From Spirochaetaceae bacterium (GTDB taxonomy: Bacteria > Spirochaetota > Spirochaetia > SZUA-6 > Bin103): a DNA stretch of 44,811 bases. Of the stretch, positions 9,226-38,823 are shown piece by piece. The stretch spans positions 1-44,811 of the forward strand of contig JAPPGB010000149.1 of NCBI GenBank assembly GCA_028821475.1, in the 5' to 3' direction. The notes beneath the pieces were generated by a model. That model had not been told where the DNA came from. It worked only from the letters and a program-made list of their open reading frames with translations, and ran no database searches. The position numbers and the translations under genes were made by a program. Each line of letters opens with the position of its first letter. Position 1 is the first letter of the stretch.

Positions 9226-9290
9226 TGTGGCGGCGCCTGCAACGCTGGCTCGACGAGACGGGTGCCAGACCCCGACCGGCAGGTGGGGAC
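9226..9290 (+). pseudogene. Tiny relic of a sulfatase C-terminus
   Basis: The plus strand reads LWRRLQRWLDETGARP, nearly identical to LWRRLRRWLAETGARF near the end of the sulfatase at 20799-22325 (DNA around 22115-22160). Only about 45 bp are conserved. It joins tail-first onto a creatininase fragment on the other strand. Confidence 0.55.
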
Positions 9291-9387
9291 CGTGCTGCTC
9301 GATCGACGCCGTCGGCAGCACCGCCAGGCTGTCGGCGGCGAGCTCCTCGACGCGATCTCGGGTCAGGTCTGCCAGGCGCACGATCAT
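9270..9387 (-). pseudogene. N-terminal remnant of a creatininase-family amidohydrolase
   Basis: From ATG 9387 the minus frame reads MIVRLADLTRDRVEELAA and then LPTASIEQHGPHLPVG. The EQHGPHLP motif holds the first metal ligands (Glu, His) of the creatininase family. Similarity stops right after LPVG, where the sulfatase tail relic begins. The frame continues to 9163 with unrelated residues. About 35 of the usual ~250 residues remain. Confidence 0.7.
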
Positions 9388-9498
9388 GCCGGTGATCCTA
9401 TGGCGTTGGCCGCCGCGCGACAACAGTTCGGGCCGCCCGTAGTGATGCTTGAGGTGCGCCTCGCGCGGTAGCGGGACGGCGCGTCGAGCACGCCCGGG

Positions 9499-10086
9499 TT
9501 AGCTGATGGCAGCGCCATCGGGGCGGCGCGGCCTCCACACGCGCAGCGCCAGCGACACGGCGAGCACCAGCACGAGACCGACGCCGCTCATCCCGGCCAC
9601 GGCCAGCGGCGCGCCGGCCACTTCCGCCAGCCCGCCGAGCGCGAGCGCCCCGAACGGCTGCGAGCCGATGCCCAGGGTCACGGCGCCGAGGGCGCGCCCG
9701 CGCAGTGCCGGATCGGTGCCCTGCAGGACTACCGATGTCTGCAGCACCGCGAACGAGGCAAATCCGAGGCCGCCCACGGTGAGCAGGTCCATGGCGTGCA
9801 GTGACTCCTGCTGGCCGTACTGCGGGCACTCACGCAGCCCGGCGGCCAGACAGCGGTGCACCGCCTCCGCCTGGTAGAGGAAGCCGTGCTGATTCGGATG
9901 CGGGCGCCGCATGCCGAACGTGCCGGGCAGCGGATACTCGAACACCTGCTCCGGCAGCGGTACGTTGGCGGTGGCGTACAGGGAGGGGACTTGGTCCTCG
10001 GCGGCCTGCCGCACCGACATGCGCGTCGGGCTGTGCGCCGGGCGGTGCAGGGTAATCCGCCCCGCGCTGCCGGCGATCTCGGTCAC
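9499..10086 (-). pseudogene. Chimera: Gfo/Idh/MocA oxidoreductase tail fused to MFS transporter tail
   Basis: Residues 1-102 (GTG start at 10086) read like the end of a Gfo/Idh/MocA sugar oxidoreductase: VTEIAGSAGRITLHRP, HPNQHGFLYQAEAVHRCL, and CPQYGQQESLHAMDLL. At about residue 103 (near 9780) the sequence switches to hydrophobic TVGGLGFASFAVLQ, RGRALGAVTLG and AGMSGVGLVLVLAVSLAL, the last two or three helices of a major facilitator transporter with its RGRALG loop. The two gene ends are joined in frame by deletion. Neither activity is plausible. Confidence 0.65.
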
Positions 10087-10448
10087 CGCGGCGCAGATCG
10101 AGCGGCAGGGAAGGCGGCAGGCCGCGGCCCGCAGAATCGTTCATGACGCAACCACCCGACCCCGGCCCCCGCCGGCACGTCGATGCGGCCGCGGCAACCC
10201 GGTCGCCGACGCCGCCACGGCGGCTTCGTGGCGTGCCGGCCGGCTGCGCGAGCGGCGCCTACGGCTTGGCGGCGAGGAGCGCCTCCGCGCTGGATCACGA
10301 TCACCGTACCGTTGTGCTCGATCCTGACCGGCCCGTCACCGCGGACGATCCTGTCGAACACCGAATTGATGTTGTTCCGTAGTTCAGCGACGGTCACCCG
10401 GTCATCGTATAGCGCGCACGCTTCCCCATCAACGGCGTACGCCGTCAC
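10083..10448 (-). pseudogene. Phd/YefM-type antitoxin remnant
   Basis: The first ~55 residues contain VTVAELRNNINSVFDRIV followed by GPVRIEHNGTVIVIQRGG, the DNA-binding N-terminus of prevent-host-death (Phd/YefM) antitoxins. After that the sequence is low-complexity Arg/Ala/Pro and matches no antitoxin toxin-binding tail, so the 3' half has been lost. The start may be GTG 10448 or the internal GTG near 10400 that begins VTVAELR. No toxin gene adjoins it. Confidence 0.55.
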
Positions 10449-10524: not shown

Positions 10525-10821
10525 GAACGGCAGCGCCAACTCCTCGACCTGATCGCCCTGTGGGTGGGGGTCATGCCGCCGGCAGCCGCCGCGCGCCGGC
10601 TCGCCGAGATCGAAGCGGAACTGCCCGAGTTGCGCTTCGCCTGGTACGGACCGGCCGACTACCGCATGCAGGGCCCGACGCTGCTCATCGAGTTCTCGTC
10701 CTGCGGTTCGCTCGGCGCCGCGGGCGGCCACTACCACTCGATCTACCGCAACCCCACCAACGAATACGGACGTGGAGATCCGAGAGCGGCTGAGCCCGGG
10801 CGCTCTGGCGAACGTACCTGA
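10525..10821 (+). pseudogene. C-terminal remnant of a DUF3500 protein
   Basis: The plus frame gives LLDLIALWVGVMPP, then LRFAWYGPADYRMQGPTLLIEF and GHYHSIYRNPTNEYG. This resembles the end of DUF3500 proteins (FAWxGP ... YRxQGPTxLIE ... HSxxRxxxxxxG). About 250-300 upstream residues usual in the family are missing. The frame closes with unrelated residues at 10821. Confidence 0.55.
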
Positions 10822-10928
10822 TCGGTGAGGCGGTCGAAAGCCGCGGAGCCGCTTGGCGAGCCCGCCGGTTGGCGCTCGTGGCCACGCCGACGCGGCTCGA
10901 TGTGATATGGTCGGAGAGGGATCGGTCC

Positions 10929-11318
10929 ATGGGCCACGTATTTGCCGAACTGGAACTCAGCAATCCGCGGCGTACCGACTTCGTGCCGGTGCGGGTGAAT
11001 GCGCTGGTGGACACGGGGGCGCTGATGCTGTGCATCCCGGAGCATACCGCCCGCCAACTCGACCTGCAGACCGAATCGGTGAGGGAGGTGTCCGTGGCCG
11101 ACGGCCGCACGGCGACCGTACCGTACGTGGGCCCGGTGAAGGTCGCCTTCGGCAAGCGGTTCTGCTACGTCGGCGCGCTGGTGATCGGCGACGAGGTGCT
11201 GCTGGGGTCGGTGCCGATGGAAGACATGGACCTGGTGGTGAACCCCGGCCGCCGGCAACTGACGGTCGACCCGGCCAGTCCCAACGTCCCCCACGCCCGC
11301 GTCAAGTGTTTTGGATGA
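10929..11318 (+). CDS. Retropepsin-like (clan AA) aspartic protease, 129 aa
   Basis: The ATG at 10929 follows a GGAGAGG site. The product has one catalytic motif, VNALVDTGA (Asp at residue 28), a flap-like region (REVSVADGRTATVPYVG) and a closing hydrophobic-hydrophobic-Gly motif (VLLGSVPMEDMDLVV), as in single-domain clan AA proteases that work as dimers. No signal peptide is seen, so it is probably cytoplasmic. The last codons overlap the TTG start of a HigA-like gene by 8 bp, suggesting coupling. A decayed copy lies at 19572 and a diverged intact copy at 22343. Confidence 0.8.
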   Translation: MGHVFAELELSNPRRTDFVPVRVNALVDTGALMLCIPEHTARQLDLQTESVREVSVADGRTATVPYVGPVKVAFGKRFCYVGALVIGDEVLLGSVPMEDMDLVVNPGRRQLTVDPASPNVPHARVKCFG

Positions 11319-11601
11319 AGCCGTGGAGCTAGCCGAGAGCCAATTCGCGGCCGCGATTCCGGCAACTGTTCGCAGGCGGCTCATGCGGGGTCGAATCGAG
11401 TCGGGTACCGACGTGGTCGCGCTGCGCCGGTTCGTCGGGCTTACCCAGATCCAGTTTGCTGCCGCGGTCGGTATCAGCGTTCACACCCTGCGCAATTGGG
11501 AACAGAACCGCCGCCGTCCTGAAGGACCGGCGCTGGCGCTCCTGCGAATCGCCGCGCGGCACCCACGAATCATACGTGAGAACATCGAATCGGTAGCATG
11601 A
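11311..11601 (+). CDS. HigA-like XRE antitoxin/regulator, 96 aa
   Basis: Residues 35-80 form a helix-turn-helix: VVALRRFVGLTQIQFAAAVGIS and then LRNWEQNRRRPEGPALALLRI. NWEQxRRxPEGPAxALLRI is the hallmark of HigA/RelB-associated XRE antitoxins. The first 30 residues match the helical N-terminus of that group. The usual toxin gene, which would lie directly upstream, is absent; the aspartic protease occupies its place. The TTG start at 11311 is the best-supported one for full family length. It may be an orphan antitoxin or a repressor of the protease gene. Confidence 0.75.
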   Translation: MDEAVELAESQFAAAIPATVRRRLMRGRIESGTDVVALRRFVGLTQIQFAAAVGISVHTLRNWEQNRRRPEGPALALLRIAARHPRIIRENIESVA

Positions 11602-11619
11602 TCGACAGTAGCAGTATGC

Positions 11620-13206
11620 TCATCCCTGCAATGTCCGCCGTACCTTTGCCTCGGTCTCACTATCCAGACGTGCGTTGGCCAGCAAGGAAAGAAACCGGTC
11701 CCGGTCAACTTCGGGAGCTATCTTGGGTATGCCCGGGATCTCGATGTGCGTCGATCCGGCTTTCACCGAGAGCTTGTACTCGCCGGGGGCCAAGGTGATA
11801 CGGGTGTGAACGCAGTCCCACTCGTGCATACGGGCGAGCTCCAGCGCGGCGGCCCTCTCCCTCGCGCGCCAGTCAGCATCATCACTGAACAACCCTCGCA
11901 AAGGGACAGGCATGGCGGGGGCGTCGCCGAGATCAAGCTCCGAGCCGGCTAGCCGATGGGCCAGTTGCGCCATGCGATGAGACACCGCGGCTGAGAGATA
12001 CTGTGGCCCCCGGAGCCGGAGCGGAAGGTTGAGCCACCCGTCTCGCACACCGAACAGGATTGCGGCCGCCAGCCAATCCATCTCGCTGAGCCGGGCGCTG
12101 TGGTAGTCGAAGAGCTCTCCACAGTCTCGGTACAGGAAGAACAACGTCATGGCATGCGCAAGGGGAGTATTGTGCCGTGCGAAGAGCTCGCTGGCCGTGG
12201 CGTCCCCGATGCCGCTCAGTGACTCAAGAGTGTCCTGCAGCTTCCTGACGCCCGCCTGCACCCGCGGGTCCAGGGTCGCCGAGGTCTCGGCCAGGTAGTC
12301 GAGCAGCACACTCTCGGGGTTGTTGGCGTGACCCGCCTCGCGCCACTTCGCGAGCCGCTCTACGGCTCCCCACAAGAGGGCTCCCTGGTAGGCGTTCTGC
12401 AAACTCGTCCGGTCCGTCTCGGGGTCGGGAGAAGCCGGAAGCGGCACGGCTCCCTCCCGCATCCAGGGTCCAAGCCCGGCGAGGATTGCGCCGTCATCCG
12501 CCGGCACCGGGGAGACGCCCGGTTCGAATGCACTCCGGCACGCTCGAACCGCCTGGTCGCCGAGGTTGCCGAAGAGAAACAGCATAGCCGTGACAGCGCC
12601 CGCGGCAAGCGGGCATTCCAGTGGTACGCTCCGTTCCCCGGGACCATCCATGGGCGGCCACTCCGTATCAGCGGCTTTGGTGAACAGCGCCTTCTTCGTC
12701 GCGTCCCTCCTGAAGTCCTCCAGAGGAACGTTGCCGAAGTCCTTCGCGCTCCTCTCGCACGCCAGCCTGTCGTCGCGCGACTGGAAGAAAATCGACTCGA
12801 TCCAGCACGTGGGGAGCGGCGCGGGTACCAGGAGCGCCCATTCGGTCCCGTCGACCTCGTGCGGGAACTGGAGCTCCCTCAGGCCACCTTGCCCCACGGC
12901 AGCGACTCGGCCCGACAACCCGGTGAGGCCGATACGCGCGATGACCGGCACGAGGTGTCCCTCCCGTGCGGACGACTCGACTGCCGTTGCAGGGGCCTGG
13001 TCGACGAACAGGGGTATCCAGCCTGGAAAGCACTCCAGGGTGTCCCGATAGTACTTCTCGCCGAACCCGGAGGGCGGCATCACCAGTCCGGCCGCGAGCA
13101 TGTACATCAGGTTGAGGTGATTGGTCACCAGGAGCGCCGACTGGGGCGCTGGCACTTCCTCCCTGGCATCGGACTGGATCAGCATCAACTGGTCAGCGTC
13201 GGCCAC
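11620..13206 (-). CDS. 528-aa protein of unknown family, last gene of the DrmAB-like operon
   Basis: The start is GTG 13206, directly after the TAA of the SF1 helicase gene. The predicted protein is soluble, with no signal peptide or membrane helix. Notable segments are LVTNHLNLMYMLAAGL, GFGEKYYRDTLECFPGWIPLF near residues 47-67, WALLVPAPLP, a helical middle (LFFLYRDCGELFDYHSARL) and a C-terminal part with LAPGEYKLSVKAGS. I see no nuclease, methylase, NTPase or phospholipase-D motif. Position as fourth gene of a translationally coupled set suggests a dedicated partner of the helicases, perhaps an assembly, sensing or effector subunit. The family is unknown to me. Confidence 0.8.
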   Translation of the reverse strand: MADADQLMLIQSDAREEVPAPQSALLVTNHLNLMYMLAAGLVMPPSGFGEKYYRDTLECFPGWIPLFVDQAPATAVESSAREGHLVPVIARIGLTGLSGRVAAVGQGGLRELQFPHEVDGTEWALLVPAPLPTCWIESIFFQSRDDRLACERSAKDFGNVPLEDFRRDATKKALFTKAADTEWPPMDGPGERSVPLECPLAAGAVTAMLFLFGNLGDQAVRACRSAFEPGVSPVPADDGAILAGLGPWMREGAVPLPASPDPETDRTSLQNAYQGALLWGAVERLAKWREAGHANNPESVLLDYLAETSATLDPRVQAGVRKLQDTLESLSGIGDATASELFARHNTPLAHAMTLFFLYRDCGELFDYHSARLSEMDWLAAAILFGVRDGWLNLPLRLRGPQYLSAAVSHRMAQLAHRLAGSELDLGDAPAMPVPLRGLFSDDADWRARERAAALELARMHEWDCVHTRITLAPGEYKLSVKAGSTHIEIPGIPKIAPEVDRDRFLSLLANARLDSETEAKVRRTLQG

Positions 13207-14370
13207 TTACAGCTCCGTGCGCCGCAGCACTTCCTGGTCCGTGGGCAGAATACTTTCGATGTCATTGCTACGGCCCCGCTTCATGAACATGAACACCCGG
13301 TCTCTGGCCCGTGCCACCATCACGTAGAACAGACGGCGCGTAACGTCGGGATCGTGCCACCGGAAGTAGTGTTCGTCGATGTCTGCGAGCACTACCGTGT
13401 CGAACTCGAGGCCCTTGCACGCCTGCGCATTGATCACCAGGATACCGCCTTCGTCAAAGCGCACGTGCGGACGTTCATTTGCCGAGAACGTGACGACTCT
13501 CGGGCGTGCGTTGTCGAGTTGAACCTCCACTGACCGAAGCTCCCGCACGTAACGTTGTCTCACTGTGTTATTTGGGGTGATGATCCCTATGAGCTGGCGC
13601 GGGTTTCGGTCGGCAAAATGCACGACAGCGCGTGCAACCTTGTTCAATCCCCGTTCGTCGTAGCCGTAGAGAATCGGAATAGGGCCCCGATCGACCGGGG
13701 GGATTTCCGGTGGCGGGCTTGCCGGGTCACCGGTGTAGAACTCCCTCGCCAACCGTGCCACGTGGTAGCGATTGCGGTAGTTCCGCCTGAGTTCGACCAC
13801 CGCGTCCGCATCGATGGCCAAACAGTCCTGGATTTCCTTCCGACTGCTGTTTCTCTCGGTGATCTGCTGATTCTGGTCGGCGACGACGAAGAAACGGTCG
13901 AAACCGAGTCCCACCAGTGAGTCATAGAACTGCCGCGGCATGTCCTGTCCTTCGTCGATCACGAGAAACGGGCGCTCGCCGTCATCACCCTCCGGCAGGT
14001 CCCGGACAATCTGTTCCACACCGTACCAATCGATCTCCCGGTAGTCGTTGTCGTTCGCGTCCTCTCGGGGAACGGGATGACCGGTGACCTCCTCGAAGAT
14101 CTCCAGGAACCAGGCAATCCATGTCCTACCTTCGAGGCCGCCACCGAACAGCTGGCCACTCGCGCGGTCGAGGAGATGATTGAAGACGAGGAACACGTAG
14201 CCGTCCAGATCTCTCTGGTGGCGCTTTGCGCGGAGCAGAGTGAGCACGGTCTTGCCCGTCCCCGGGCCGCCGATGACCAGGTACTGCCCGTCGCTCGGCA
14301 TGGCGCGCACCCTTTCCTGCTCCTTGCTGAGATCCTGAATACCTGGCAGCTCGAATTTGCGTTCGGCCAT
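13207..14370 (-). CDS. Superfamily 1 (UvrD/Rep-like) DNA helicase, 387 aa
   Basis: The ATG at 14370 overlaps the stop of the DrmB-like gene (ATGA). Motifs in order are Walker A GGPGTGKT (34-41), Walker B VIDEGQD (137-143), motif III VADQNQQI (163-170), motif IV ELRRNYRN, motif V ACKGLEFDTVVL (about 330) and motif VI FYVMVARARDRV (about 365). The 1B/2B insertions of full UvrD (about 700 aa) are missing, so it is a compact ATP-dependent helicase or translocase. Compact SF1 helicases of this type occur in defence operons. The context suggests it acts on DNA with the DrmA/DrmB-like pair. Confidence 0.85.
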   Translation of the reverse strand: MAERKFELPGIQDLSKEQERVRAMPSDGQYLVIGGPGTGKTVLTLLRAKRHQRDLDGYVFLVFNHLLDRASGQLFGGGLEGRTWIAWFLEIFEEVTGHPVPREDANDNDYREIDWYGVEQIVRDLPEGDDGERPFLVIDEGQDMPRQFYDSLVGLGFDRFFVVADQNQQITERNSSRKEIQDCLAIDADAVVELRRNYRNRYHVARLAREFYTGDPASPPPEIPPVDRGPIPILYGYDERGLNKVARAVVHFADRNPRQLIGIITPNNTVRQRYVRELRSVEVQLDNARPRVVTFSANERPHVRFDEGGILVINAQACKGLEFDTVVLADIDEHYFRWHDPDVTRRLFYVMVARARDRVFMFMKRGRSNDIESILPTDQEVLRRTEL

Positions 14371-16208
14371 CAGATAGTCGACTCCGCATGGTCGGTAAGG
14401 GGAGCGATGTCGGGCACGGCGCCGGTGACGAACGTCCGGTCGAGCAAAACGTTGCCGATGGGACAGCTTGGTTCCGGTACGAGCGCACAGGCGTGACATG
14501 CTGCCCGATTCAGCAGGTCCGGTCCATGCCCTTCCTGTTCCGCGCACACCGGGTCCATCGAGCACCAGCTTGCAGCCTCGTATGCCGTGGTCAGCAGGCG
14601 AAGGAACTTTCCAGGCTTTGCCATCTCCATCAGGCCGCCCAGCGATCCCTCCTGGTCGGCCACGGCCACGTAGATCAGAATCCCCGCCATCGGCGCCGTG
14701 CCGGTGCGGCTGTAGATTCGTTCCTTCAATGCGGCGGCGGGGTAGCCCGCTTCCGCATCGAGCCGGCGAATGATCAGGTGGGCGAGTGTGTGGCACAGCA
14801 GGAAGCGCGGCGACACTTCGACGTGGCCTTCCGGCGTTGCCTGACCGTTGCGGTGATCGTACCGCTGAGCAAAGGCTTCTGCTCGTCGTTGGAGCGCTTT
14901 GCCGGCCTCCCAGCGCTGCAGCATCGCCTCGTCGAGGGTAAAGAAAATCCCCTCCCCATACAGCTCCAGGGCGGGAAGCCAGTCGCTCTCTCCGGTCAGG
15001 TCCGGTGGCGTCAGGCGCCCGCCCACGCGCTGAAACCCCTTCAGCACCATGACCTCCTTCAGCCTGTTGACGGCGATGAGCCGCGAGACGGTGCTCGCGA
15101 CACGTCGCACATCGCCTGCGTCGAGCCCATCGCGTAGAGCTCTCCACTCGTCAGTGTGGTGCTCGGTGACGAAGTCCTCGACTTCCCTCAGGTCGGGGAT
15201 TCTCTCGGAGAACGCGCGGTATTCATCCGCCATCAGATCCCCGGCGGTAACCTTCTGGTCGTAGAGCGGGTAGCCATCGTCTATCCGCGCAAGCGCAGCC
15301 TCGATCTGGTCGGGGGTGCAGCGGTACTCGGTGGCGAGCTGTCTGACCGCTGCCCGCCGTGCCAAGCTGTTCCGAGCGTTCCGGATCCGGTCCTGATTTC
15401 GGGCGCTTCCGTACAAGTGGTCGAGGACCGTGCCGCGCCGGACTCTCGACTCCGGCGGGATGACGAGCGCAGTGCGGGTCATCGGGTAGTGGACCCGCAC
15501 ATCGTTGATGTCCATCACCCAAGCCGGCTCCGCAGGTGACTGCGCCGGCCGTTCGCGAAACCAGGGCTGCTGCCACGCGCCGGATGGGAATGCGGCTCGG
15601 GGCAGCGAACCGGACCTCAGGCTCTCGCTCGACATGCAACGATCGCAGGTGATCCGGCGGCCGGCCGGTGTGTCGCTCAGTCGCAAATGGGGTTCCGTCT
15701 GATCAGGGCGACACTGACGACGGCGAGGGTCGCGACTATCAGCATGCGCCAGTTGGTGCCAGGGCACGTCCGCCAGATAACCCTCTTCGTGAACGAGAAC
15801 CCAGGGCACCTGCTCGAGTCGCCCGCTACACGCACCACTTCCTCCTTCGTGTCCCCAACACCCGCGTGCCCCTTTCCGTGCTCGCCACGGCGCCGGGTGC
15901 AGCAACCCGCACGTAAGACAGCGCATCCAGGTAGGGAACTTCAGGGCCGGAATCCATCCAAGGGTCATCCCGTTTCGCTCGGTCGCGCGCGGCGGGCTGC
16001 AGAGTGCCTGTTCGATACCGAGGGCGCTCCGTACCCGTTCCACGTAGCGAATCTCTCGATCCATGGGATCGCTCCCCGGACGGTCCCAGGTACTGATGTC
16101 CTGCACCACCATCAGACTATCCGCGCCGTCGCTCACGATCGCGCCGACCGAGCACTCGCGCAACAGGTGCGACAGGCGAACGGGTACGTCTACGACCTCG
16201 TCAGTCAT
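14370..16208 (-). CDS. DrmB-like DUF1998 protein, 612 aa
   Basis: The ATG at 16208 overlaps the DrmA-like stop (ATGA at 16205-16208). The N-terminal part has Cys motifs likely to bind zinc: CLTCG (97-100) with C117 and C127, then C188 and C191 (TCDRC). The C-terminal part has the DUF1998 signature: PRFLLCHTLAHLIIRRL, ILIYVAVADQEGSLGGL and the Cys set CSMDPVC and CHACALVPEPSC. In DISARM, DrmB carries DUF1998 and pairs with the DrmA helicase, which loads on phage DNA. Size and domain fit DrmB; DUF1998 also occurs in Druantia and other helicase systems, so the name is by analogy. Confidence 0.8.
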   Translation of the reverse strand: MTDEVVDVPVRLSHLLRECSVGAIVSDGADSLMVVQDISTWDRPGSDPMDREIRYVERVRSALGIEQALCSPPRATERNGMTLGWIPALKFPTWMRCLTCGLLHPAPWRARKGARGCWGHEGGSGACSGRLEQVPWVLVHEEGYLADVPWHQLAHADSRDPRRRQCRPDQTEPHLRLSDTPAGRRITCDRCMSSESLRSGSLPRAAFPSGAWQQPWFRERPAQSPAEPAWVMDINDVRVHYPMTRTALVIPPESRVRRGTVLDHLYGSARNQDRIRNARNSLARRAAVRQLATEYRCTPDQIEAALARIDDGYPLYDQKVTAGDLMADEYRAFSERIPDLREVEDFVTEHHTDEWRALRDGLDAGDVRRVASTVSRLIAVNRLKEVMVLKGFQRVGGRLTPPDLTGESDWLPALELYGEGIFFTLDEAMLQRWEAGKALQRRAEAFAQRYDHRNGQATPEGHVEVSPRFLLCHTLAHLIIRRLDAEAGYPAAALKERIYSRTGTAPMAGILIYVAVADQEGSLGGLMEMAKPGKFLRLLTTAYEAASWCSMDPVCAEQEGHGPDLLNRAACHACALVPEPSCPIGNVLLDRTFVTGAVPDIAPLTDHAESTI

Positions 16209-19200
16209 GGACACGTTTCGTTCCTCAATTTCGCGCGCGGCCACTCATGGATTCTCAACGCACCGGTCCCTTCCACGTTCCGCATCGAGTGCAAGGTCGC
16301 CCACAGGGCGGGACGCGCGTCGCCGTGCGCGTAGAGCAACCGGTCGGCGTTTCGCTCGCGGTCCGGCGCCTGGTACTTGAGCTGTCGTCGGCCTTGTTCA
16401 CAGCGCCGCGCTTCATCGTGCCACTGTTCGACCAGACGTTCGAGATGGCGCTCGGTGTCAGACCGCTGGCCGGAGTCAGCAGCCGCGTGTGCACAACGCC
16501 GCTTGAGATCTGCGACCGCAGCCCGTACTTCGGGCGCGTTCCGGTCGAAGTTCCGCGCCGATGCATTACCGCGCAGATCGCTGCACGTATGTCGGAGTAC
16601 AATGACGAGGGCGGCGTGGAGCGCGCGCGAACGAACCTGGTGGGTAAACGGCGTCACACTGCTCGGCTCCACGAAGCGGTAGAAGGACTCGTGGTAGGGG
16701 CGGAAGCTCTCGTAGTGAGACAGACTTCGAGCTTGGTGCCGGTAGTAGTTGGCAAAGATGAGACCGGGAACGTCCCCACGCCCGACTCGGCTGGTAGCCT
16801 GGATGTATTCTGCGGTGGTGAGCGGCTGACCGTTGACGATCATCAGCGCAAGGCGCGCCACGTCGAGACCGACGGATATCATGTTGGTCGCGAGTACCGC
16901 GTCGAGGCTGCCATCGGCCTCCCGGGACCTCATCAGTCGCTGAAACGTCTCGGCATTCTCCTCGGCAGGCCGCCGACTCGTGAGCTGAGCAACGCGTGCG
17001 TGCTGCAACCGCCCTGCCGCGCCGTCCGGTTCATGATCTCGATCGGCAAAATCGGGGGCATACTCGTTGTCTTGCTGTTCCTCACCCCCGCCGGCGATCC
17101 ATCGCCCGAAGTCGCGCACGTCAGTCATGAACGAGTTGTGGCTGTTGCCCACTCCCTTGAGGCTGCCGTGGTAGATCACCTGGGTCCACCACGCATCAAG
17201 TAACGCGTCCCGGTCGGAACGTCCGTCGAACACTGCCAGCGGGGCGGCAAGCACCGCTGCGGCGAGCGGCGCGAGGCAGCGCTGTTGATCGAGCATCGGC
17301 GACAGGTAGCCGACATAGAGCCGCCCCGGATGCTCCCGGTCCACGCGTGCGAAGTACGAGTCGTCGTGTGACAGCCCCGGCGGCGGAAACACGGCAAGCT
17401 CGCGCGCATACAGGCGCCGGACCTGCTGCTCCGCCATCCGGATGGTGGCGGTGGAGGCGACGTACTTTGGACGAACACCGCGCTGGATCAGCAGCGTTTC
17501 GAGTCCCGCTTCGTACAGCCCCGCTACCGAACCGAGCGGCCCCGTGACCAGGTGCAACTCGTCCTGGATCACCAGCTCCGGCGGACGCGAGCCGTTGCTG
17601 ACACCGAAGAACGCGCCGGCCCGGTCGTCCCAAGCGAGCCGCGCAAACTTGTCGATGGTACCGACTAGCAGCGAGGGCGGGCGTCGATAGAGGGCCTCGT
17701 CCACGACGTTGCAGGGCAGCAGGCGGGAGTCGACGCCGAATGCGCACTCCGGGCCGGTGCACTGGAAACCGAAGTCGTCTCCGGTTGCATGGTAACCCAA
17801 CTCGACGTTGAACGAGGTGCCGCACCACGGACAACGCTCCAGGAGCAGCTTGTAGCACGCTTCCGGTCTGCCATCCTTGATCTCGTCCACCAGTTCCCGA
17901 GCCTGAGCGAACGTGTTGGGGCTGATCTCGCGGCCGACCCAGATGCCGATGTCAATGGGCGCCTCACCGTAGCGGGCTGGATTACCCCTCCGGATCAGTT
18001 CCAACGCGCACACCATGCGCGCGGCCCGTTCGAACTGCTGGCGGGTGAGCAGTCGCAACGTGTAACGCATGAAGGCGGAAGTCCCTCCTCCCGAAGAGGG
18101 GTGCCTCAGACGGCGCCACACGATGAGAAACGCAATGAGGCCAAGGTAGGCTTCGGTCTTGCCGCCACCGGTGGGAACCAGATGAGGTCCAGCACATCGC
18201 GAAACGGGTCTTGTTCCCGGATCACGGACGCCATGGTCGTCAGCAGGAATGCCAACTGAAACGGACGCCAGTGGTAGGTGCCGGTATCCCGGCCGGCTAC
18301 CCGGTCTGCCTGGCGCATCTGGTCGAGCATGGCGCGGTTCGCCAACCGAAACGCCTCTTCGGCAAGCGGGTCCGTACGCAACATCTCGATGCCCGCGCGC
18401 ATCCGTTTCACGGCCATACCCATCCTGCCGCAGATTCGGTTCGCGGTAGCCCGTTCCTTCCCGTTCGGAAACGCCGACGCGACGCGATTCTGCTCGGCAA
18501 CCCAGTCGGCGTATCGATCGGCAAAGCGCTCAAGCTCGTCCGGTATCGGCGCCGCGGCGAGCCGGGTGAGAGAAAGGACGCCCTCTTCTCCGCATGGTTC
18601 GACGGTGATCAGAGGCACTTCAGCTTGGGGCATGAAATCGGACCAGATCCGTGCTGGTCGGCCACGTTTCAGGTCCCAGTCTGCTGCGGCGCCGTGACCG
18701 ATGGCGTAGATTCGTTGTTGCCGGTACTGAAGCTCAAGCTCCTGCTCCTCCGCGGTGAGCAGACTCGGATCTACTCGTGGGTAGTCGACAAGCTCGCCGC
18801 TCTCGATCACGCACTCCAAACGAGCCTCGAACAGTGATTTCTCCACCCGATCTCGTGTTCTGTCGCGACCCCAAGCGCTGGCGTCGAGTTCAGCGCGGTT
18901 CGACAGGGTGACGGTCAAGATGAGGCCGCCTCGATGAGGCCGGGCGCGAGTGTCTATGCTGGCGCGTCCTTTCCAGATCCGATCGCTGGTCACGTTGCTT
19001 GGAGCAGCGGAGCGCGTCCATGTAATGGCGCACTCCGGAAGCTTTGACCGCTCGTACTGCGGTGGGAGGAATCGGCCCTGATCGTCACGCTCACGGTTGC
19101 GATCCTGGTAAACGGCGGCGGATGGCACGATGGAGAGACTCACGTTGTCCCGAACGAAGAACGAGAAGCCTACCGAGGATGGCGGGACGTACCGGCGCCG

Positions 19201-19461
19201 GCGGGCCGGTTGGGCAACCTGATCATCCTGCGCGTCGTCTGATGGTGCCGTGTCGTCCTGGTCGTCGAGGAGGGCTCCCTCCGTTTCTTCTGTCCCGGCC
19301 GAAGCCGGGTCGATGCCGGCGCGGTCGGAGCCGATGGGATGCAGCACCCCGGTGGGAAATCGATCCAGCGGCGAGATCCGCAGGCTTCCGTCGCCGGCCG
19401 GTCCCATGAGCTGGCGGCGCAACCACGCGACGAGCACGTTCCTTTCTTCGACGTAGTTCAC
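16205..19461 (-). pseudogene. DrmA-like SF2 helicase, frame broken in the Walker A motif
   Basis: Two minus frames (18106-19461 and 16205-18121) together encode one ~1085-residue helicase. The first ends in DLIWFP, then shifts; the second continues as EAYLGLIAFLIVWRRL. The expected block FPTGGGKTEAY is restored by adding one C to the CCC run near 18172-18176. Downstream motifs are VIQDELH (DExH box), ATNMISVGLDVA (motif V) and YIQATSRVGR (motif VI), with Cys pairs CPWCG nearby. The ~430-residue N-terminal region ending RPFQLAFLLTT fits DrmA-type helicases of DISARM. The gene starts at GTG 19461 and heads the operon. Either a real inactivating or phase-variable slip, or a homopolymer error in the assembly. 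Confidence 0.8.
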
Positions 19462-19527: not shown

Positions 19528-19571
19528 CATGTCGGCAAGTAGCGTGACGCAATGAAGAATCGGATCATTTC

Positions 19572-19817
19572 ATGGCCACGTATTGCAACGGGAACTGAGG
19601 AATCCGCAGCGTACCGATTTCGTGCCGGTGCCGTGTGACGGCGGGGACAAGAGGACTCTGCTGCTATGCACTCCGGAGCACGTCGCCACCAGCTCGACCT
19701 GCGGACCGAATCGGCGAGGGAGGTGTCGGTAGCCGGCAGCAGCACGACGACCGCACCCTACGCGAGTCCGGTGAGGGTCGCGGTCGGCAAGCGGTGCTGC
19801 GAGGTGGGCGCGAAGGC
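19572..19817 (+). pseudogene. Decayed copy of the clan AA aspartic protease
   Basis: The DNA aligns by eye along most of its length with the intact gene at 10929 (GGCCACGTATT, AATCCGC, CGTACCGA, TTCGTGCCGGTG). A lost base after the ATG puts it out of frame. The DTG motif is destroyed: GTGGACACGGGG has become an unrelated GACGGCGGGGACA stretch. The second half is back in frame as RHQLDLRTESAREVSV and is fused to the sialidase that follows. Confidence 0.75.
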
Positions 19818-20799
19818 GGATTCGTCGGGTCTGATTGCTGCCACCCTGCCCGGCGACCGGGGGCTCGTTCGCTGGCAAGGCACCTATCCGCTGCAGGACG
19901 ACGCCGGGCAGCCCATGTCCGAGTCGTGGCTGATTCGAAACCACGAGCTGGCCCTCAGGCGCGGCGGGCGCCTGACCATGGTGCGCAGCCGGGATGGTGG
20001 CAGGAGCTGGGACACGGTCGACCTGACCGATCCATTCTTTACCCATCCGGGGGCCGGGCTGGCGTGGTTCATCGGCGCCGGCATCCAGTTGCGGCGCGGC
20101 CGCCATGCCGGCCGGCTGTTGGTGCCCGCCCGCTACTTCACCGGCAACTGGCAGGAGGTGGATCCCGACCGGCACCGGATCCTGTATTACCACCCGACGC
20201 TCGGCCAGGTGTACGACGACGGCGAAGGGCAGGTCGCCCAGGTCCTCGACAGCGAAGCGCACAATGCCGTGATCTACAGCGACGACCATGGCGAGTCCTG
20301 GCACTGGGGCGGCAGCTCGCAGGGCTACGTGGGTGAGGCGTGCATCGTGGAGCTGGCCGGCGGCGCCGTCTACATGAATAACCGCAACCACGACCCGCGC
20401 AGCCTCGGCTACCGGTCGTGGTGCATCAGCCGCGACGGCGGCGAGAGCTTCACCGAGTTCGGCGTCGACCGCACGCTGATCGAAGGACGGTGCCACGCCG
20501 CACTGGCGCGTTGCCCGGCTTCCGGGCAGCGAGGCGGCGGCCCGATTCTGTTCAGCAACCCGGCCTCGTTCGAAGGCGTCAACCAGTTGCACACCCGCGA
20601 GATCGGCAGCGCCGCGCGGCGCGACCTCACGGTGCGGGTGAGCTACGACGAGTGCCGGACCTGACCGGTGTCACGGCGTATCGACGAGGACGCCGGCTAC
20701 TCGTCGCTGGTGGTGCTCGACGACGGCACCATCCTGTGCGGCTACGGCGCCTGGGTGTGCCGCTTCAATCTTGCCTGGCTGGAGGGCGGGGAGGCGTGA
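19818..20799 (+). pseudogene. Exo-sialidase (BNR/Asp-box) with lost N-terminus and an in-frame stop
   Basis: The sequence shows three Asp boxes: SRDGGRSW (from 19984), SDDHGESW (from 20278) and SRDGGESF (near 20428). It also has IGAGIQLRRGRHAGRLLVPAR and EACIVELAGG, typical of GH33-type sialidases that trim terminal sialic acids or similar sugars. The N-terminus is replaced by the protease relic. The frame stops at TGA 20662-20664, yet continues in the same frame as PVSRRIDEDAGYSSLVVLDDG and RFNLAWLEGGEA to a stop at 20797-20799. RT-stop-PVS is where family members have a Trp (RTWPVS), so TGG has become TGA. The true stop overlaps the sulfatase ATG (TGATG), showing they once formed an operon. 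Confidence 0.75.
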
Positions 20800-22325
20800 T
20801 GGCCCACACCCGGCCCAACGTGGTGTTCATTCTGGCCGACGACCTGGGGTGGTGCGACCTCGGCATCGAGGGCAGCCGCTTCTACGAGAGCCCGCACCTC
20901 GACCGGCTGGCGCGCGGCGGGATGCGCTTCACCCAGGGTTATGCCGCCTGCCAGGTGTGCAGCCCGTCGCGCGCCAGCATCCTGACCGGAAAGTACCCGC
21001 CGCGCCACGGGATCACCGATTGGATCGGGGCGCCGGCCGGCGAGGCGTGGCGTGAGCTGGGGCGGCACAGCAGGCTGCTGCCCGCCGAGTACGAGCGGAG
21101 CCTGCGAGCGAACGAGGTGACCTTCGCCGAGGTGTTTCGGCGGGCCGGCTACCGCACCTTCTTTGCCGGCAAGTGGCACCTCGGCGACACCGGCGCCGCC
21201 CCGGAGGACTTCGGCTTCCAGGTCAACAAGGGCGGCTGGAAGGTGGGCTCGCCGATGGGCGGCTACTTCGCGCCGTGGCACAACCCGAAGCTGGAACCGG
21301 GACCCGACGGCGAGTCGCTGCCGCTGCGGCTGGGCCGGGAGACGGCGAAATTCATCGGCGACCACCGCGACGGGCCGTTTCTGGCCTACCTGTCGTTCTA
21401 CTCCGTGCACGGACCGATCCAGACCAGCCGCGACCGCTGGGAGCGGTTTCGCGCCAAGGCCGCCGCCCAGGGGGCGGCGCGGCGGCGTCAGCGGTTCCGG
21501 TTCGACGGCAGCCGCCCGGTGCGGCTGGTGGAGGACTGCCCGATCTATGCCGGCATGATCGAGGCGATGGACGAGGCGGTCGGCCTGGTGCTCGACGCCC
21601 TGGATCGCTTCGGACTGGCCGACAACACGGTCGTCTGCTTCACCTCCGACAACGGCGGCGCCTCGACCGGCGACGCCTTCCCCGCTTCGATGCTGCCCCT
21701 GCGCGGCGGCAAGGGACGGCAGTGGGAGGGCGGCATCCGCGAGCCGCTGTACGTCCGCTTCCCCGGCGTGGTGGCACCGGGGGCCACGTGCGACGTGCCG
21801 GTGTCGGGCATCGACTTCTATCCCACGCTGCTGGAACTGGCGGGTCTGGAGGTGCCGCCCGAGCAGGTGATCGACGGCCGCAGCATGGTCCCGCTGCTGC
21901 GCGGCCGACACGACGCCGCGATCGCCGAACGCGACCTGTTCTGGCACTACCCCCACTACGGCAACCAGGGCGGCGACCCCTCGTCGACGATCCGCCGCGG
22001 CCCCTGGAAGCTGATCCATTACCACGAGGACGGCCACCACGAGCTGTACCACCTGGAGTCCGATCCGGGCGAGCAGCGTGACGTGCGGAACGAGCAGCGA
22101 TCCACCGCCGACCACCTGTGGCGGCGCCTGCGACGCTGGCTCGCCGAGACGGGCGCCAGGTTCCCGGAGCCCGACCCGCGGTACGATGCGGCCCGCCAGC
22201 GGGCGTTCCTGCGTCACTTCGAGCACCAACGGATGCCCGAGTTGGAGGAGCAGCACGCCGCTTACCTCGACCCCGACTGGCAGCCCAACCCCGACTGGTG
22301 GGGCAGCCAGGTAGTCACCGATTAG
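20799..22325 (+). CDS. Type I sulfatase (arylsulfatase-like), 508 aa
   Basis: From ATG 20799 the protein opens with RPNVVFILADDLGWCDLG, the metal-binding Asp pair of alkaline-phosphatase-fold sulfatases. The signature CSPSRASILTG has C54 as the residue converted to formylglycine. FFAGKWHLGD, SDNGG and the C-terminal RRGPWKLIHYHEDG and ELYHLESDPGEQRDV complete the family pattern. It removes sulfate esters, probably from sulfated glycans, which fits the sialidase just upstream. No signal peptide is evident. Activity needs a formylglycine-generating enzyme, not encoded here. The length is normal and the gene appears intact. Confidence 0.92.
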   Translation: MAHTRPNVVFILADDLGWCDLGIEGSRFYESPHLDRLARGGMRFTQGYAACQVCSPSRASILTGKYPPRHGITDWIGAPAGEAWRELGRHSRLLPAEYERSLRANEVTFAEVFRRAGYRTFFAGKWHLGDTGAAPEDFGFQVNKGGWKVGSPMGGYFAPWHNPKLEPGPDGESLPLRLGRETAKFIGDHRDGPFLAYLSFYSVHGPIQTSRDRWERFRAKAAAQGAARRRQRFRFDGSRPVRLVEDCPIYAGMIEAMDEAVGLVLDALDRFGLADNTVVCFTSDNGGASTGDAFPASMLPLRGGKGRQWEGGIREPLYVRFPGVVAPGATCDVPVSGIDFYPTLLELAGLEVPPEQVIDGRSMVPLLRGRHDAAIAERDLFWHYPHYGNQGGDPSSTIRRGPWKLIHYHEDGHHELYHLESDPGEQRDVRNEQRSTADHLWRRLRRWLAETGARFPEPDPRYDAARQRAFLRHFEHQRMPELEEQHAAYLDPDWQPNPDWWGSQVVTD

Positions 22326-22342
22326 CGTATTATATCGAGTCC

Positions 22343-24675: not shown

Positions 24676-26175
24676 CTACGAAACGGGCGCCCGGCGCGAT
24701 ACACCACCCTTTCGTCGAAGATTCAGGCCTTGCAAATACGGATCCGGTACGTCTATCCGGTCGCCTGGCCGGTTGCGAAAGACTCCAAGCTCGACCAGGT
24801 AATCCACGAGCCGCCCCGGGCGTTCCTCCGGAGGCCAAACGTTCCCGCGATGGCTCGATGCCCACGGCCGGTCCCAGTCCGCGCCAAGCATGGCTACGAT
24901 CTGGTTACGAGACCACGGGACCAAGCGCTGCTTGCCGATGCGCTCCCTCACCCCCTCCAGCCATGGCCACTCGCTACTGATCGCTTGTGTAACGTGATCC
25001 TGCGATACATCGTCGAGAGCCTGGCGCAGGGCGGCCGGATGCAGGAGCCTTGGCGGCGACAGCGTTCGATTCGGGGCTTCCTTCAGAGCTGCCTGCTCGT
25101 AGAGTCGTACCAGCGTGCGAGGCGACACCTGTCCATTCCCGTCCCGCAGGTGATCGAGTACCCAGTTGCGGACGTAGCCCTTCTTTTTCTCCGCTCCCAT
25201 GTACTCCCCCGAGAACCGCTCCAGCAAGGCGTGCGCATTGTCGGGTCGTTCGACTTTCGGCAGCAATCCGAGCGTGCTGTCCCGTTCAAACGATAGCCGT
25301 GCGCCGCGGCAGTAGTCAGCGAGAGACTCCGAAGTATTGGCGATGCGCTTTACCAGCATGCCGAGTATGGCGGTGTCGGACCATATGAGTTCGGCTCGGG
25401 TAGCGGCAAGCTTCGCAAAGTCGGCGGTACCCATATTGGCATGACGGCGGAACAGGTCGGATCGCAGAAATATTTTCGCCCTGATTCGCCGCCATCGACG
25501 GCTGTAGTCCGACCAGAAAGCAATGAGCCCACGTACCAGACGGGACATGAGTTGCCAGTCGAATCCCCCCAGCGTGTCGAGTTCGTCGTAGCCCACGAAG
25601 ATCCAGCGGCCAGCCTCCTCCAACCGTTTTTCCAGCATATCCAATGCGGCGGTGGGGTTTACGGAGAGCTCTCGTTCGGCCTTGAGAACCGCGCCAAGAT
25701 CAGCGGCAACCGGTCGCACCACCGGATCCAGATGGCTCCGATGATTGCTGTCAAGCTTGTCCGCCAGCGTGCGGACCAGCATAACGTACCAAAGGGCCCT
25801 TGCGGTGCTGTCCGAGTCGATGTGTTGAGCGAGTGCACGGTCGTCTGGGAATGCAGTGCCGGAAGGATGGGCACGCTTCCATTCGGCGGAAGAGGATCTT
25901 ATCTGGAATCCTGCCGACCCCGGTGCATAGCGCATGATGGCGTCTCCGAGATCGTCATTCTCCGAGAAGAACGCGCTGAACAGCTCACTCTTTCCGGAAC
26001 CACGCGGACCAACGACGAGTACGACGTTGGGATCGAGGGCTCTGAGATGTTCCGGGACAGGGTGCAGACGTCGTGCGAATAGATCGCCGGACTCAGCCTC
26101 CGCCTGACCGTAGCCAAGGTTGCTGATTTGGGCCCGCAGCTCTGCACAATCTTGTTTGGTGAGCCGTTTCCTCAC
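24676..26175 (-). CDS. P-loop ATPase, third gene of the HEPN/KGGVGR cassette, 499 aa
   Basis: The start is GTG 26175, 8 bp after the KGGVGR ATPase stop. Walker A is GPRGSGKS (56-63) and Walker B WIFVGYDELD (191-200). Downstream, IRAKIFLRSDLFRR fits sensor-like strands of KAP/STAND-type or Sll1717-like P-loop ATPases. The C-terminal third has SRNQIVAMLGADW, RLVDYLVELGVFRN and IDVPDPYLQGL, which look like winged-helix modules as in NACHT/STAND relatives. There is no membrane helix. It probably acts as an NTP-driven switch with the two upstream proteins. The exact subfamily is uncertain. Confidence 0.8.
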   Translation of the reverse strand: MRKRLTKQDCAELRAQISNLGYGQAEAESGDLFARRLHPVPEHLRALDPNVVLVVGPRGSGKSELFSAFFSENDDLGDAIMRYAPGSAGFQIRSSSAEWKRAHPSGTAFPDDRALAQHIDSDSTARALWYVMLVRTLADKLDSNHRSHLDPVVRPVAADLGAVLKAERELSVNPTAALDMLEKRLEEAGRWIFVGYDELDTLGGFDWQLMSRLVRGLIAFWSDYSRRWRRIRAKIFLRSDLFRRHANMGTADFAKLAATRAELIWSDTAILGMLVKRIANTSESLADYCRGARLSFERDSTLGLLPKVERPDNAHALLERFSGEYMGAEKKKGYVRNWVLDHLRDGNGQVSPRTLVRLYEQAALKEAPNRTLSPPRLLHPAALRQALDDVSQDHVTQAISSEWPWLEGVRERIGKQRLVPWSRNQIVAMLGADWDRPWASSHRGNVWPPEERPGRLVDYLVELGVFRNRPGDRIDVPDPYLQGLNLRRKGGVSRRAPVS

Positions 26176-26183
26176 TCGGGTAC

Positions 26184-27494
26184 CTACCGGGCTCGCGCCT
26201 GACTGGTCCGCACGCGCTCGGCGAGTCTGCGGTAGGGTTCACCGTCCAGCAGGACATCCTTCGCAACCTCATCGAGTTCGCGAAATAGTACAAGACGCTC
26301 ATCGTACGACAGGGGCACGGGAACGTGCGGTGCATCGCTGCTCTCCACGTCGTCCACCGTCCAGAATTGGTCCCCCTGATCCGGTGCGGCGTAGTATCGG
26401 TCGCTGAACACGTCCTGGGCGCGGTCGGTAAACCAAGCCACCGATTCCTGATATTGGCGTTCCTGGGAGCGCGGCACCATGGCTGCTACCAAGACACACT
26501 CGGCCTGTGGTCTCTGCGCGCGTACTTGGTCGGCCCCAAGTCGTTCCAGTATCATCGCCAGTCCGCGCCAGCTTGCTTCCGCGAGCGTTCCAACCACCAC
26601 GTGCACGTGGCACAGGCCTCCCATTACGAACCCCGATACGTTCGCAAGGCCGGCTCGTGCGTCAATGAGGATCCAGTCCGGAGCAAGCTCTTGGCGAATC
26701 TGCTCAAGTAGCCGGACAAACGGATGGGTCTCGCCCCCGTGGAGGGTTGCGTAGTCGAGCCGCGCCAGCTTCGCGACGTACCTGCCATCGGTCGTCCCTG
26801 CCGGGAAGACCATGATCTCTCCAGTTCCGGAGAACAACGAGGGCGGACAACGATGGAAGTAGTCGCTCAAGTCGAGCTCGTCGTTGCCGCCGAGGAGAGG
26901 TTGCTCGATCAGGTAGTCGACGACCCCCCAGGATGCGGTAGCACCATCGTGGGCGCTCAACAGGAACCCCACGCCCGGAGCGTCGAGATCGGCATCGAGG
27001 ACCACGACCCGCTCACCGGCTGCAGCCAGGTGCAGGGCCGTGGCAGCCAGCGCCGTCGACCGTCCTACTCCGCCCTTGAAGGAGTAGAAGGAAGTGATGG
27101 TCGGCCTTCCCCTAGCCGCGGTCCAGGGGGGCGCCGCGGGTGCTTCGAACCAGCCCTCCTTGGTGCGTTGTCGTTCCATGACGCGCACCCCGCCGGTGTC
27201 GCCGATGGGAGTGCCTTGTTGCCATGCCTCAGCTTGCCATTCGCCGTCGGGAGGCTCGTTCTTGCCGGAGCCACGAAGCACCTCACGAGTCCAATAGTTG
27301 GGCGCTTCGTCCTGGAGAACCTGATCGATCTCGACACTCGCCGCCTCCCAACGCGACTTCGGGCACCAGAGGATGACCCGGAGCCGGGCAAACAGGTCCT
27401 TGATCAGCAGGATGCGCCATGATGACGGCTTGTCTGACAGAAATCTCTTCAGGATGGATTCTGCACGGTCGTGGGCCTCGTCGACGTGGAGCAT
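26184..27494 (-). CDS. KGGVGR-motif ParA/MinD-like ATPase, 436 aa
   Basis: The ATG at 27494 overlaps the HEPN gene stop by one base (TGATG). The deviant Walker A is YSFKGGVGRSTALAATALHLA (KGGVGRST 140-147; ParA/MinD have KGGxGK[ST]), so the final invariant Lys of the standard P-loop is Arg, as in the group annotated KGGVGR-motif variant ATPases. VVVLDADLDAPGVG (163-176) is the switch I/Walker A' region and DWILIDARAGLANVSG the Walker B. Residues 1-110 form a separate helical N-terminal region (AESILKRFL, WCPKSRWEAASVEIDQVL) that may be an effector-associated or adaptor domain. It is probably a regulatory ATPase that dimerises with the neighbouring proteins. Confidence 0.85.
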   Translation of the reverse strand: MLHVDEAHDRAESILKRFLSDKPSSWRILLIKDLFARLRVILWCPKSRWEAASVEIDQVLQDEAPNYWTREVLRGSGKNEPPDGEWQAEAWQQGTPIGDTGGVRVMERQRTKEGWFEAPAAPPWTAARGRPTITSFYSFKGGVGRSTALAATALHLAAAGERVVVLDADLDAPGVGFLLSAHDGATASWGVVDYLIEQPLLGGNDELDLSDYFHRCPPSLFSGTGEIMVFPAGTTDGRYVAKLARLDYATLHGGETHPFVRLLEQIRQELAPDWILIDARAGLANVSGFVMGGLCHVHVVVGTLAEASWRGLAMILERLGADQVRAQRPQAECVLVAAMVPRSQERQYQESVAWFTDRAQDVFSDRYYAAPDQGDQFWTVDDVESSDAPHVPVPLSYDERLVLFRELDEVAKDVLLDGEPYRRLAERVRTSQARAR

Positions 27495-27922
27495 CAAATC
27501 ACTCCGTCGAGACGCAGGCCGCCGATGACTCTCGAATACACAGCGCCGGCTTCTTGTAGCCACGACCCGGCAACAGTGGACGTGACCCTGCCGCCCGCAC
27601 GGTAGCGCATCTCGGGGTTCCAGCTCAGAATACGCGCATTACTCAGGAGCGCGGCAGCAGTAGCGAAGTGGCGCTGCGTTTGTGGACCGGCTTGAGCGGC
27701 AATCGCGCCAAGTGAGCGGCGGATGCCGGCCAAGTCGTGAGATCGGAGACCTCGCCCGGTCTGCACCTGAATCAGTGCCTTCAACGCACACTCCACTACG
27801 TAGCCCGCCAGATAGGCGGCGCCGTCGGGGCGCGATCCGGTCATGAGAACCCCGGCGTCCTTGAGGTGCTTGCCAGCGGCTTCCGGATAGTCATCGCCGT
27901 TGCCCTGTCGGAGACGACTCAC
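27494..27922 (-). CDS. HEPN-domain protein, 142 aa
   Basis: From GTG 27922 the protein reads DYPEAAGKHLKDAGVLM, then GAAYLAGYVVECALKALIQV and SHDLAGIRRSL. This is the four-helix HEPN fold (helix, AGY..E.ALKALI, HDL). RGLRSH (57-62) fits the R-x4-H ribonuclease pattern, but HDL is also structural in this subgroup, so catalysis is unproven. As the first, smallest gene of a coupled operon with two ATPases it is a natural candidate effector (RNase toxin) or its regulator. It is followed by the ATPase start with a TGATG overlap. Confidence 0.75.
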   Translation of the reverse strand: MSRLRQGNGDDYPEAAGKHLKDAGVLMTGSRPDGAAYLAGYVVECALKALIQVQTGRGLRSHDLAGIRRSLGAIAAQAGPQTQRHFATAAALLSNARILSWNPEMRYRAGGRVTSTVAGSWLQEAGAVYSRVIGGLRLDGVI

Positions 27923-37079: not shown

Positions 37080-38693
37080 TCACCCGACCTGCGCCGCGAT
37101 CTCAGCTCGCATCCAACGTGTCGAGGCAAGGTCGATTGGCCTCAGGTTGAATCCTGCCAGGTATGCTGTCGGACGGTTCTTCTTCATGTCCAGAAAGGGA
37201 TAGAAGGTCTCGAAATCACTCGACGCCGTCGCCTGCTCTATTTCCTGAATCGCGCGCGCCTTCAGCTCCTTCGAGAGATCCTGTATGACCTCGTAGCTGG
37301 CGCGGCTGCCACGCAGATTCACCAGCAAGCGGTCGCGAACCGTTGCCATCTGGTTCTCCAGTGCCGCCCGATAGGCCGCATCGTCGTATCCTTCCGGATC
37401 CAACTCGGAGATATTGTCGGGATGATAGAGATAATTCTCCAGCGCATAGTACCTGAGTACATGGAGAGTCGATTCGCGACGACGGATCTCGGCAATCTCT
37501 TCGCTGCCGAGGAAATCACGGTCAATCAGTCCCTCATAGTCATCTGAACCGCGGAGTTGGATTACCACCGAATTCTTGTCTCGGACACCGATGAACAGCA
37601 GTTCGGGAAGATCGATCGCGTTATATAGGCGCGCATCCTTGTTTTCGCAGATCATGAGACGCTTGTTTGAAAACACCTTGAGCGCTGAGTTTCTGGGCAC
37701 TGCAATGTCGAATATGTGCTCTGACTTCGGAGCGGGATGAAGCGTCTGCGGTTGATCGAAGTCGAGGTCGTCGAAGTCGAGAATCGCAGCGTCGTCGCTG
37801 CCGCCAGCGTAGTCGATGAAGCCGAGCGAGTGGCTGGCCGTCCACAGTTGCGAGTTCTCGGGAATCCAGCGCTCCACTATCTCTTTGGCGAGCGCGTACT
37901 GCAAGCTGGTGTGCAGATGGACGTCCAACTCATCGATGAAGTAGATCGCGTTGGGAAAGTGCTCGCGACGGATGAACAGGTTCAGGATGATGTTGAACAC
38001 TTCCTTCTCGCCACTGCTGAGCAGATCGTAATGGACCTCGGAGCCGCCCTTCTGAAACCGGATATCCGGCGGCTTCCCGGACAGCGCCGGGATCAGCGTG
38101 TGGAGTCGCAGACCGGTTGCGAAGCTCGCGCTGAAAACGCGTTCTAGAGCTTCGTTGATGGGATCGGTGAAGCGCGCCCGCATGGTGTCGGAGTCGAACG
38201 GCTCCCCCCACACTTCGCGGAGAATGCTTTCAGTGATCTGAGACACGTCGGTGGTGAAGCGCGTATCCTGTTCGATGAATCGCTGCGGACGATCGGCATC
38301 TATGGTCAAGTCTACGGGGGCGCCCGTTTGCCCGCTGAGTTCAGGCACGGTACGCAACGAGCTGCGCCCATAGAATGCCGATCTTCCGTCCCAGCCCTTG
38401 GACGCGGTCACTTGCTCATTGTTGGTTCGCTTGACGGTGACCCCACCGCCGAGCGTGCAGTCAACTGACATGTCAGCATCGGGGCGCTTCTTGAAATAGT
38501 CCAGGTAGTGGTCGCGAAGGAGCCCTTTGACAGGCCCGGACAGATATTCGAATGCGTCGAAGATGGACGACTTTCCGCTGCCGTTGGCACCGATCAGCAA
38601 GATCAACTTCGGCGCGGTGCCGAGTGCCGAGAGATCGATCGTCAGATCGCTGAAACGCTTGAAGTTGGTGAGATGAAGAGCCTCGATATTCAT
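37080..38693 (-). CDS. AAA ATPase fused to a DUF4435 TOPRIM-like nuclease domain (PARIS-like), 537 aa
   Basis: The ATG at 38693 starts MNIEALHLTNFKRFSDL. Residues 1-310 are an ABC-type AAA15/21 ATPase with Walker A GANGSGKS (35-42), signature LLSSGEKEV (224-232), Walker B IYFIDELDVHLH (250-261) and switch His in TASHS (285-289). Residues 340-537 resemble DUF4435, a TOPRIM-like nuclease fold: RLMICENKDARLY (Glu 350), GLIDRDFL (D391 and D393) and ALENYLYHP. PARIS defence uses AriA (AAA15) and AriB (DUF4435), and single-chain forms exist, so this may be a one-gene PARIS-like anti-phage sensor and effector. OLD-family nucleases are the main alternative. It sits between two unrelated genes with short gaps. 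Confidence 0.75.
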   Translation of the reverse strand: MNIEALHLTNFKRFSDLTIDLSALGTAPKLILLIGANGSGKSSIFDAFEYLSGPVKGLLRDHYLDYFKKRPDADMSVDCTLGGGVTVKRTNNEQVTASKGWDGRSAFYGRSSLRTVPELSGQTGAPVDLTIDADRPQRFIEQDTRFTTDVSQITESILREVWGEPFDSDTMRARFTDPINEALERVFSASFATGLRLHTLIPALSGKPPDIRFQKGGSEVHYDLLSSGEKEVFNIILNLFIRREHFPNAIYFIDELDVHLHTSLQYALAKEIVERWIPENSQLWTASHSLGFIDYAGGSDDAAILDFDDLDFDQPQTLHPAPKSEHIFDIAVPRNSALKVFSNKRLMICENKDARLYNAIDLPELLFIGVRDKNSVVIQLRGSDDYEGLIDRDFLGSEEIAEIRRRESTLHVLRYYALENYLYHPDNISELDPEGYDDAAYRAALENQMATVRDRLLVNLRGSRASYEVIQDLSKELKARAIQEIEQATASSDFETFYPFLDMKKNRPTAYLAGFNLRPIDLASTRWMRAEIAAQVG

Positions 38694-38823
38694 GGCCTGA
38701 CCCGGCAACCCGCGACGCTCGCCGAAGTTAGGCGCGTAGGGTACCACGCCGGGCGGCGCGAAGTCATCGCAGTGATCGGGGGAGCGATGGGGCCACTGCG
38801 ATGACCCGCGCGCTGGTGGAGTA

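Follow-up and report, generated by a model that had tools for sequence, protein, structure and literature searches.

Defence by DISARM requires the ATP-site residues of the helicase DrmA (PMC9142583), and in ARMADA mutation of the Walker A motif of a YprA-like helicase abolishes defence (PMC12458937). The operon described here resembles both systems and matches neither. As in DISARM, a DrmA-family SF2 helicase and a separate DrmB protein (MZB/DUF1998) are encoded side by side. It differs from DISARM in that it contains neither DrmC (PLD) nor a methyltransferase, and has a UvrD-like helicase, a protein with a predicted ART/ARH fold and, often, a NERD helicase. With ARMADA type II it shares the combination of a YprA-family helicase and a GajB-like UvrD helicase (PMC12458937), but, like DISARM, it encodes the MZB part in a DrmB gene of its own, and both a BrxHII-like helicase and the PglX methyltransferase are missing. 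The best matches of the operon helicase are DrmA proteins and not the helicases of ARMADA or Druantia. A literature search returned no paper describing drmA, UvrD and NERD genes as one system, and none linking DISARM with DarT.

The operon lies on the minus strand of a 44,811-nucleotide stretch of DNA from a Spirochaetaceae bacterium (contig JAPPGB010000149.1, positions 1–44,811), the whole of which is referred to below as the window. Its drmA gene is split by a frameshift in the Walker A motif. We consider it probable that this is a real and recent one-base deletion that inactivated the gene, and that a horizontally acquired operon has thereby lost its motor.

Composition and origin of the operon

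Directly downstream of drmA is an intact drmB (14370–16244, minus strand; likely start ATG at 16208), which is matched by the PADLOC DrmB model (1e-54) and scores 324 bits against NF038324 (NCBIfam DrmB_fam), above the cut-off of 240. The third gene (13207–14370, minus strand) encodes an intact UvrD/GajB-like SF1 helicase of 387 residues, and the fourth (11620–13206, minus strand) an intact protein of 528 residues that is predicted to combine a DarT-like ART fold with an ARH3/DraG-like fold. A genome scan for relatives recovered 17 loci from several phyla. The order drmA, drmB, UvrD-like gene, 528-residue gene is constant in these relatives wherever the contig allows it to be read, with the exception of the distant locus L026, and is followed by a gene for a NERD-domain helicase in eight related loci. 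We considered and rejected the absence of the NERD helicase as a sign of decay. Two relatives (L024 and L028) also have no adjacent copy and a third (L025) has a distant one upstream, which indicates that this gene is an optional part of the operon.

Intact DrmA proteins of four relatives (L012, L014, L022 and L023) score 786–868 bits against NF038325 (NCBIfam DISARM_DrmAS, the DISARM equivalog), below its cut-off of 950, whereas the DrmA used as a positive comparison (L109, from the same-family genome G003) reaches 1141 bits and passes it. No DrmC match was found among the operon proteins of the window, L012 or L014; the sole PLD-domain protein recovered, in L012, is a type IV restriction enzyme whose gene lies outside the operon. 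No methyltransferase family, DrmMI and DrmMII included, matched within the operon, and a methyltransferase-motif scan of the 17 related loci yielded a single antisense open reading frame (ORF). Given a DrmA below the curated cut-off and the lack of DrmC and a methyltransferase, we refer to the operon as DISARM-like and not as DISARM. The helicase itself had originally been predicted to be DrmA-like, and matches in both PADLOC and NCBIfam agree; it belongs to a sister group of the curated DISARM DrmA proteins.

Comparison with a genome of the same genus (G002) revealed that window positions 19876–22326 and 9521–10202 are co-linear on one of its contigs, where they lie 7 kb apart and enclose metabolic genes and no drm genes. 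The operon is therefore an insertion. A search for the 528-residue gene in 295 other genomes sampled from this phylum returned no relative. The operon has been acquired horizontally. It is flanked by two partial aspartyl-protease copies, 79% identical, that form direct repeats: one is part of the gene at 10794–11318 (10919–11177, plus strand), and the other is a truncated second copy that borders the operon on its upstream side (19562–19812, plus strand). This aspartyl-protease gene (plus strand) and a gene at 11383–11608 (plus strand), which we take to encode an XRE-type HTH protein, adjoin the operon where it ends. Since relatives of both occur elsewhere in the genus, they mark the downstream edge of the operon.

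Several further features of the window were recorded. What is left of an MFS transporter and a Gfo/Idh/MocA oxidoreductase, with two deletions inside, lies at 9269–10223; identity to intact counterparts in the same genome (G000:C72) reaches 98%, and these remnants are co-linear with a contig of the same-genus genome (G002:C56). Adjacent P-loop ATPases, one of the Sll1717 family and one a KGGVGR-motif variant AAA ATPase, are encoded at 24676–27638 (minus strand) and are possibly another conflict module. An AAA_15/AAA_21 ATPase (RecF/SMC-like, AbiEii/OLD-type) at 37080–38747 (minus strand) stands alone amid transporter genes.

The frame break in drmA

The 5' fragment of drmA (18106–19461, minus strand) encodes 451 residues up to a premature stop and is matched by PADLOC DrmA (3e-39) and NCBIfam DISARM_DrmAS (4.5e-50); its last ~22 residues are out of frame. 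The 3' fragment (16205–18172, minus strand) encodes 655 residues from TGGGKT onward, comprising RecA2 and the remainder of RecA1, with matches to Helicase_C and PADLOC DrmA (3.9e-163). The two frames meet within motif I, Walker A, at TTC CCA C (18171–18178, minus strand), where the minus strand from 18180 to 18160 reads TGGTTCCCACCGGTGGCGGCA. The 5' frame encodes ...LIWFPPVAARPKP... and stops at 18106, while the frame opening at 18172 encodes TGGGKTEAYLGLIAF... and is clean through to 16205. The original prediction had placed a frameshift in Walker A, as found here, with the run one base off at 18172–18174; the C run occupies 18173–18175 (GGG on the plus strand).

Joining the ~428 codons of the N-terminal part, counted from GTG 19461, to the 655 residues of the C-terminal part gives ~1084 residues. 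This agrees with the ~1085 residues first proposed and with the 1086-residue ORF of the intact relative L012. Across these ~1084 codons there is no other premature stop, and the expectation of clean frames with their motifs present holds 3' of the break, where motif II (DELH, Walker B; 17552–17563, minus strand), motif III (STAT) and motif VI (QATSRVGRG; 16775–16801, minus strand) are all intact.

Fifteen of the 17 related loci (L012–L026) reach the break site. All 15 continue through it in a single uninterrupted frame encoding F(P/Q)TGGGKTEAY, which is open for 300 codons or more ahead of the site, so that the window sequence carries a one-base loss specific to its lineage. The intact L012 protein aligns over its full length to drmA of the window in two frames, with their junction at 18175. 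This two-frame arrangement is not the product of chance ORFs. A search of viral contigs with the DrmA query returned no relative.

The position of the break in a homopolymer is what had suggested phase variation, in which reversible changes in the length of the C run would toggle defence within the population. We consider this very improbable. The run is three bases long, there is no long hypermutable tract, and the longest C/G run anywhere in drmA is 5. Published phase-variable C/G tracts are longer, with a threshold of >8 and a shortest cited example of C6 (PMC1891110). The codon at this position varies among the relatives (CCC, CCG, CCT or CAG); hence there is no conserved homopolymer at the site, and no tract maintained by selection. 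Programmed −1 ribosomal frameshifting, by which slippage on C_CCA would yield some full-length DrmA with its Walker A motif, appears just as remote. Slipping back by one base at CCA would indeed regain the frame of the motif, but the frame is broken here in none of the 15 relatives, the site has neither an X_XXY_YYZ heptamer nor an upstream SD-like stimulator, and the RNA 3' of the break folds no better than shuffled sequences (z +0.36 to +0.70).

Pairwise comparison with outgroups indicates that drmA of the window has evolved as its intact relatives have. The dN of the C-terminal part to L016 is 0.239, compared with 0.225 and 0.221 for intact relatives, and that of the N-terminal part is 0.325, compared with 0.331 and 0.382. 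With each gene set against its own counterparts, drmA has evolved at no higher rate than either drmB or the third gene of the operon. With the other helicase motifs intact and no relaxation of selection, the break is either recent or an isolated assembly error. The earlier description of the break as recent is thus in keeping with both the clean frames and the unaccelerated dN.

Gene loss or assembly error

Were the missing base due to an assembly or consensus error, or to a minority allele chosen by the assembler, the cells would carry an intact drmA. We think this unlikely, while recognizing that several observations fit it: the change is a single base within a homopolymer, drmA and the operon show no other lesion and evolve under normal constraint, and the assembly, with a completeness of 95.7%, is broken up into 183 contigs. 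Frame breaks also occur in two of the related loci, in drmA away from the Walker A site (L024:8387–8395 and L025:9386–9388) and, several times over, in drmB (L025:10585–11294). These could be sequencing errors, which would suit an artefact here as well, or repeated inactivation.

Against such an error, a run of just three to four bases is an atypical error site for short-read assemblies. To this we can add a survey of 657 kb, made up of the window and 613 kb from elsewhere in its genome, against which all large ORFs from the genome itself and from same-genus and related sequences were searched. The survey returned 19 clusters of frame changes, and the break in drmA is the only one in the 657 kb that is backed by many homologues (15). 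The part covered by homologues, ~206 kb, contains ~970 C/G runs that are exactly four bases long, and no excess of indels was seen, so the assembly does not systematically drop bases at such runs. Examination of the remaining clusters led us to set aside the apparent breaks in L035, L039 (at 16.6 kb) and L043 as intergenic, repeat or non-coding, and, from their alignments, those in L061, L039 (at 7.2 kb), L051 (at 13.4 kb) and L052 as antisense or alternative-frame artefacts. On our reading of the alignments, gene-internal breaks are scarce in this genome, and the plausible ones that are left affect a small number of paralogs or gene remnants (L042, L048 and L051 near the contig start). These few unexplained breaks count against a real mutation in drmA.

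The same genome carries a second drmAB locus (G000:C11; L110:9666–12374, minus strand), which was compared with the intact locus of the same-family genome G003 (DrmA of 1223 residues, DrmB of 609 residues). It has been wrecked by a deletion: its drmA is kept to residue ~749, is then fused to DrmB residues 39–199, and ends there. Both drmAB loci of the genome are thus broken, by unrelated lesions, which raises the likelihood that the loss in the window is genuine. The ORF next to the C11 locus resembles a lysyl-tRNA-synthetase-like (EpmA-like) protein.

Taken together, a genuine mutation of drmA is favored over assembly error. We infer that the base is truly missing in the cells and that the defence function has been lost. 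Among the explanations originally offered, the switching-off of the system by loss of function is thus the one we prefer, and phase variation falls because a C run of three to four bases is too short.

On the loss-of-function reading, translation of drmA would end ~22 codons past the break. A downstream restart, for which GTG 18121 is a possible internal start in the 3' fragment, would give a product lacking Walker A, that is, a helicase without the P-loop lysine motif. A DrmAB complex containing it would be unable to hydrolyze ATP, and the system would very likely be off. By analogy with the Walker A mutation in ARMADA, the window drmA would then be a null allele, and the gene is most likely dead. 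The premature stop may also lower the expression of drmB, the UvrD-like gene and the 528-residue gene by polarity. Since the rest of the operon is intact, the loss of a single base from a short C run would make this a young null allele. As such it is ordinary; its value is that of a natural motor knock-out in an otherwise complete operon.

The 528-residue protein and its possible role

The product of the fourth gene, which is kept beside drmAB in L012–L028 across several phyla, had no match in Pfam, NCBIfam or PADLOC, and a sequence search of the PDB with the family found nothing. We therefore describe it from an AlphaFold2 model (mean pLDDT 87). Residues ~17–176 of the model match DarT (Foldseek E 1.1e-4, probability 1.00), with a VIA Z of 10.1 over 151 residues against DarT 7omw. 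Residues ~195–423 match ARH3/DraG with a VIA Z of up to 14.1 over 207 residues, and with a Foldseek E of only 0.07 or higher.

The resemblance to DarT extends to T28 and N32, which are spaced like T15 and N19 of DarT (PMC9967889). R51 and E160 of DarT, in contrast, have no clear match among the invariant positions of the aligned family: the ART half has no invariant Arg, and the Glu preceding LLVPAPLP is absent in 5 of 14 members. The partner domain also differs from that of DarT/DarG, being ARH-like and not a macrodomain. In ARH/DraG enzymes, conserved Asp residues bind metal. The C-terminal half of the model superposes on ARH3/DraG, but these metal-binding Asp residues are not among the conserved columns of the family. 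The invariant polar residues are N29, H30, N32, Y35, K51, Y53, D55 and E82, and position 28 is T or S. In the model, the conserved polar residues of the ART half outline a possible pocket. The protein could be either a divergent enzyme or a nucleotide- or DNA-binding module.

The operon may represent an undescribed branch of DrmAB systems, a proposal that we advance tentatively and hold to be possible rather than probable. Such a branch would do without methylation and would use instead the predicted DarT-like/ARH-like fusion, either as a reversible mark distinguishing self from phage DNA or as an effector that is triggered and carries its own antidote, and in this bacterium it would just have been disabled by the Walker A frameshift. 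The operon matters more than the frameshift, as it suggests that DrmAB can operate when no methyltransferase is present and a protein of the ADP-ribosylation type accompanies it. If true, this would bear on how DISARM-like systems discriminate self from non-self DNA.
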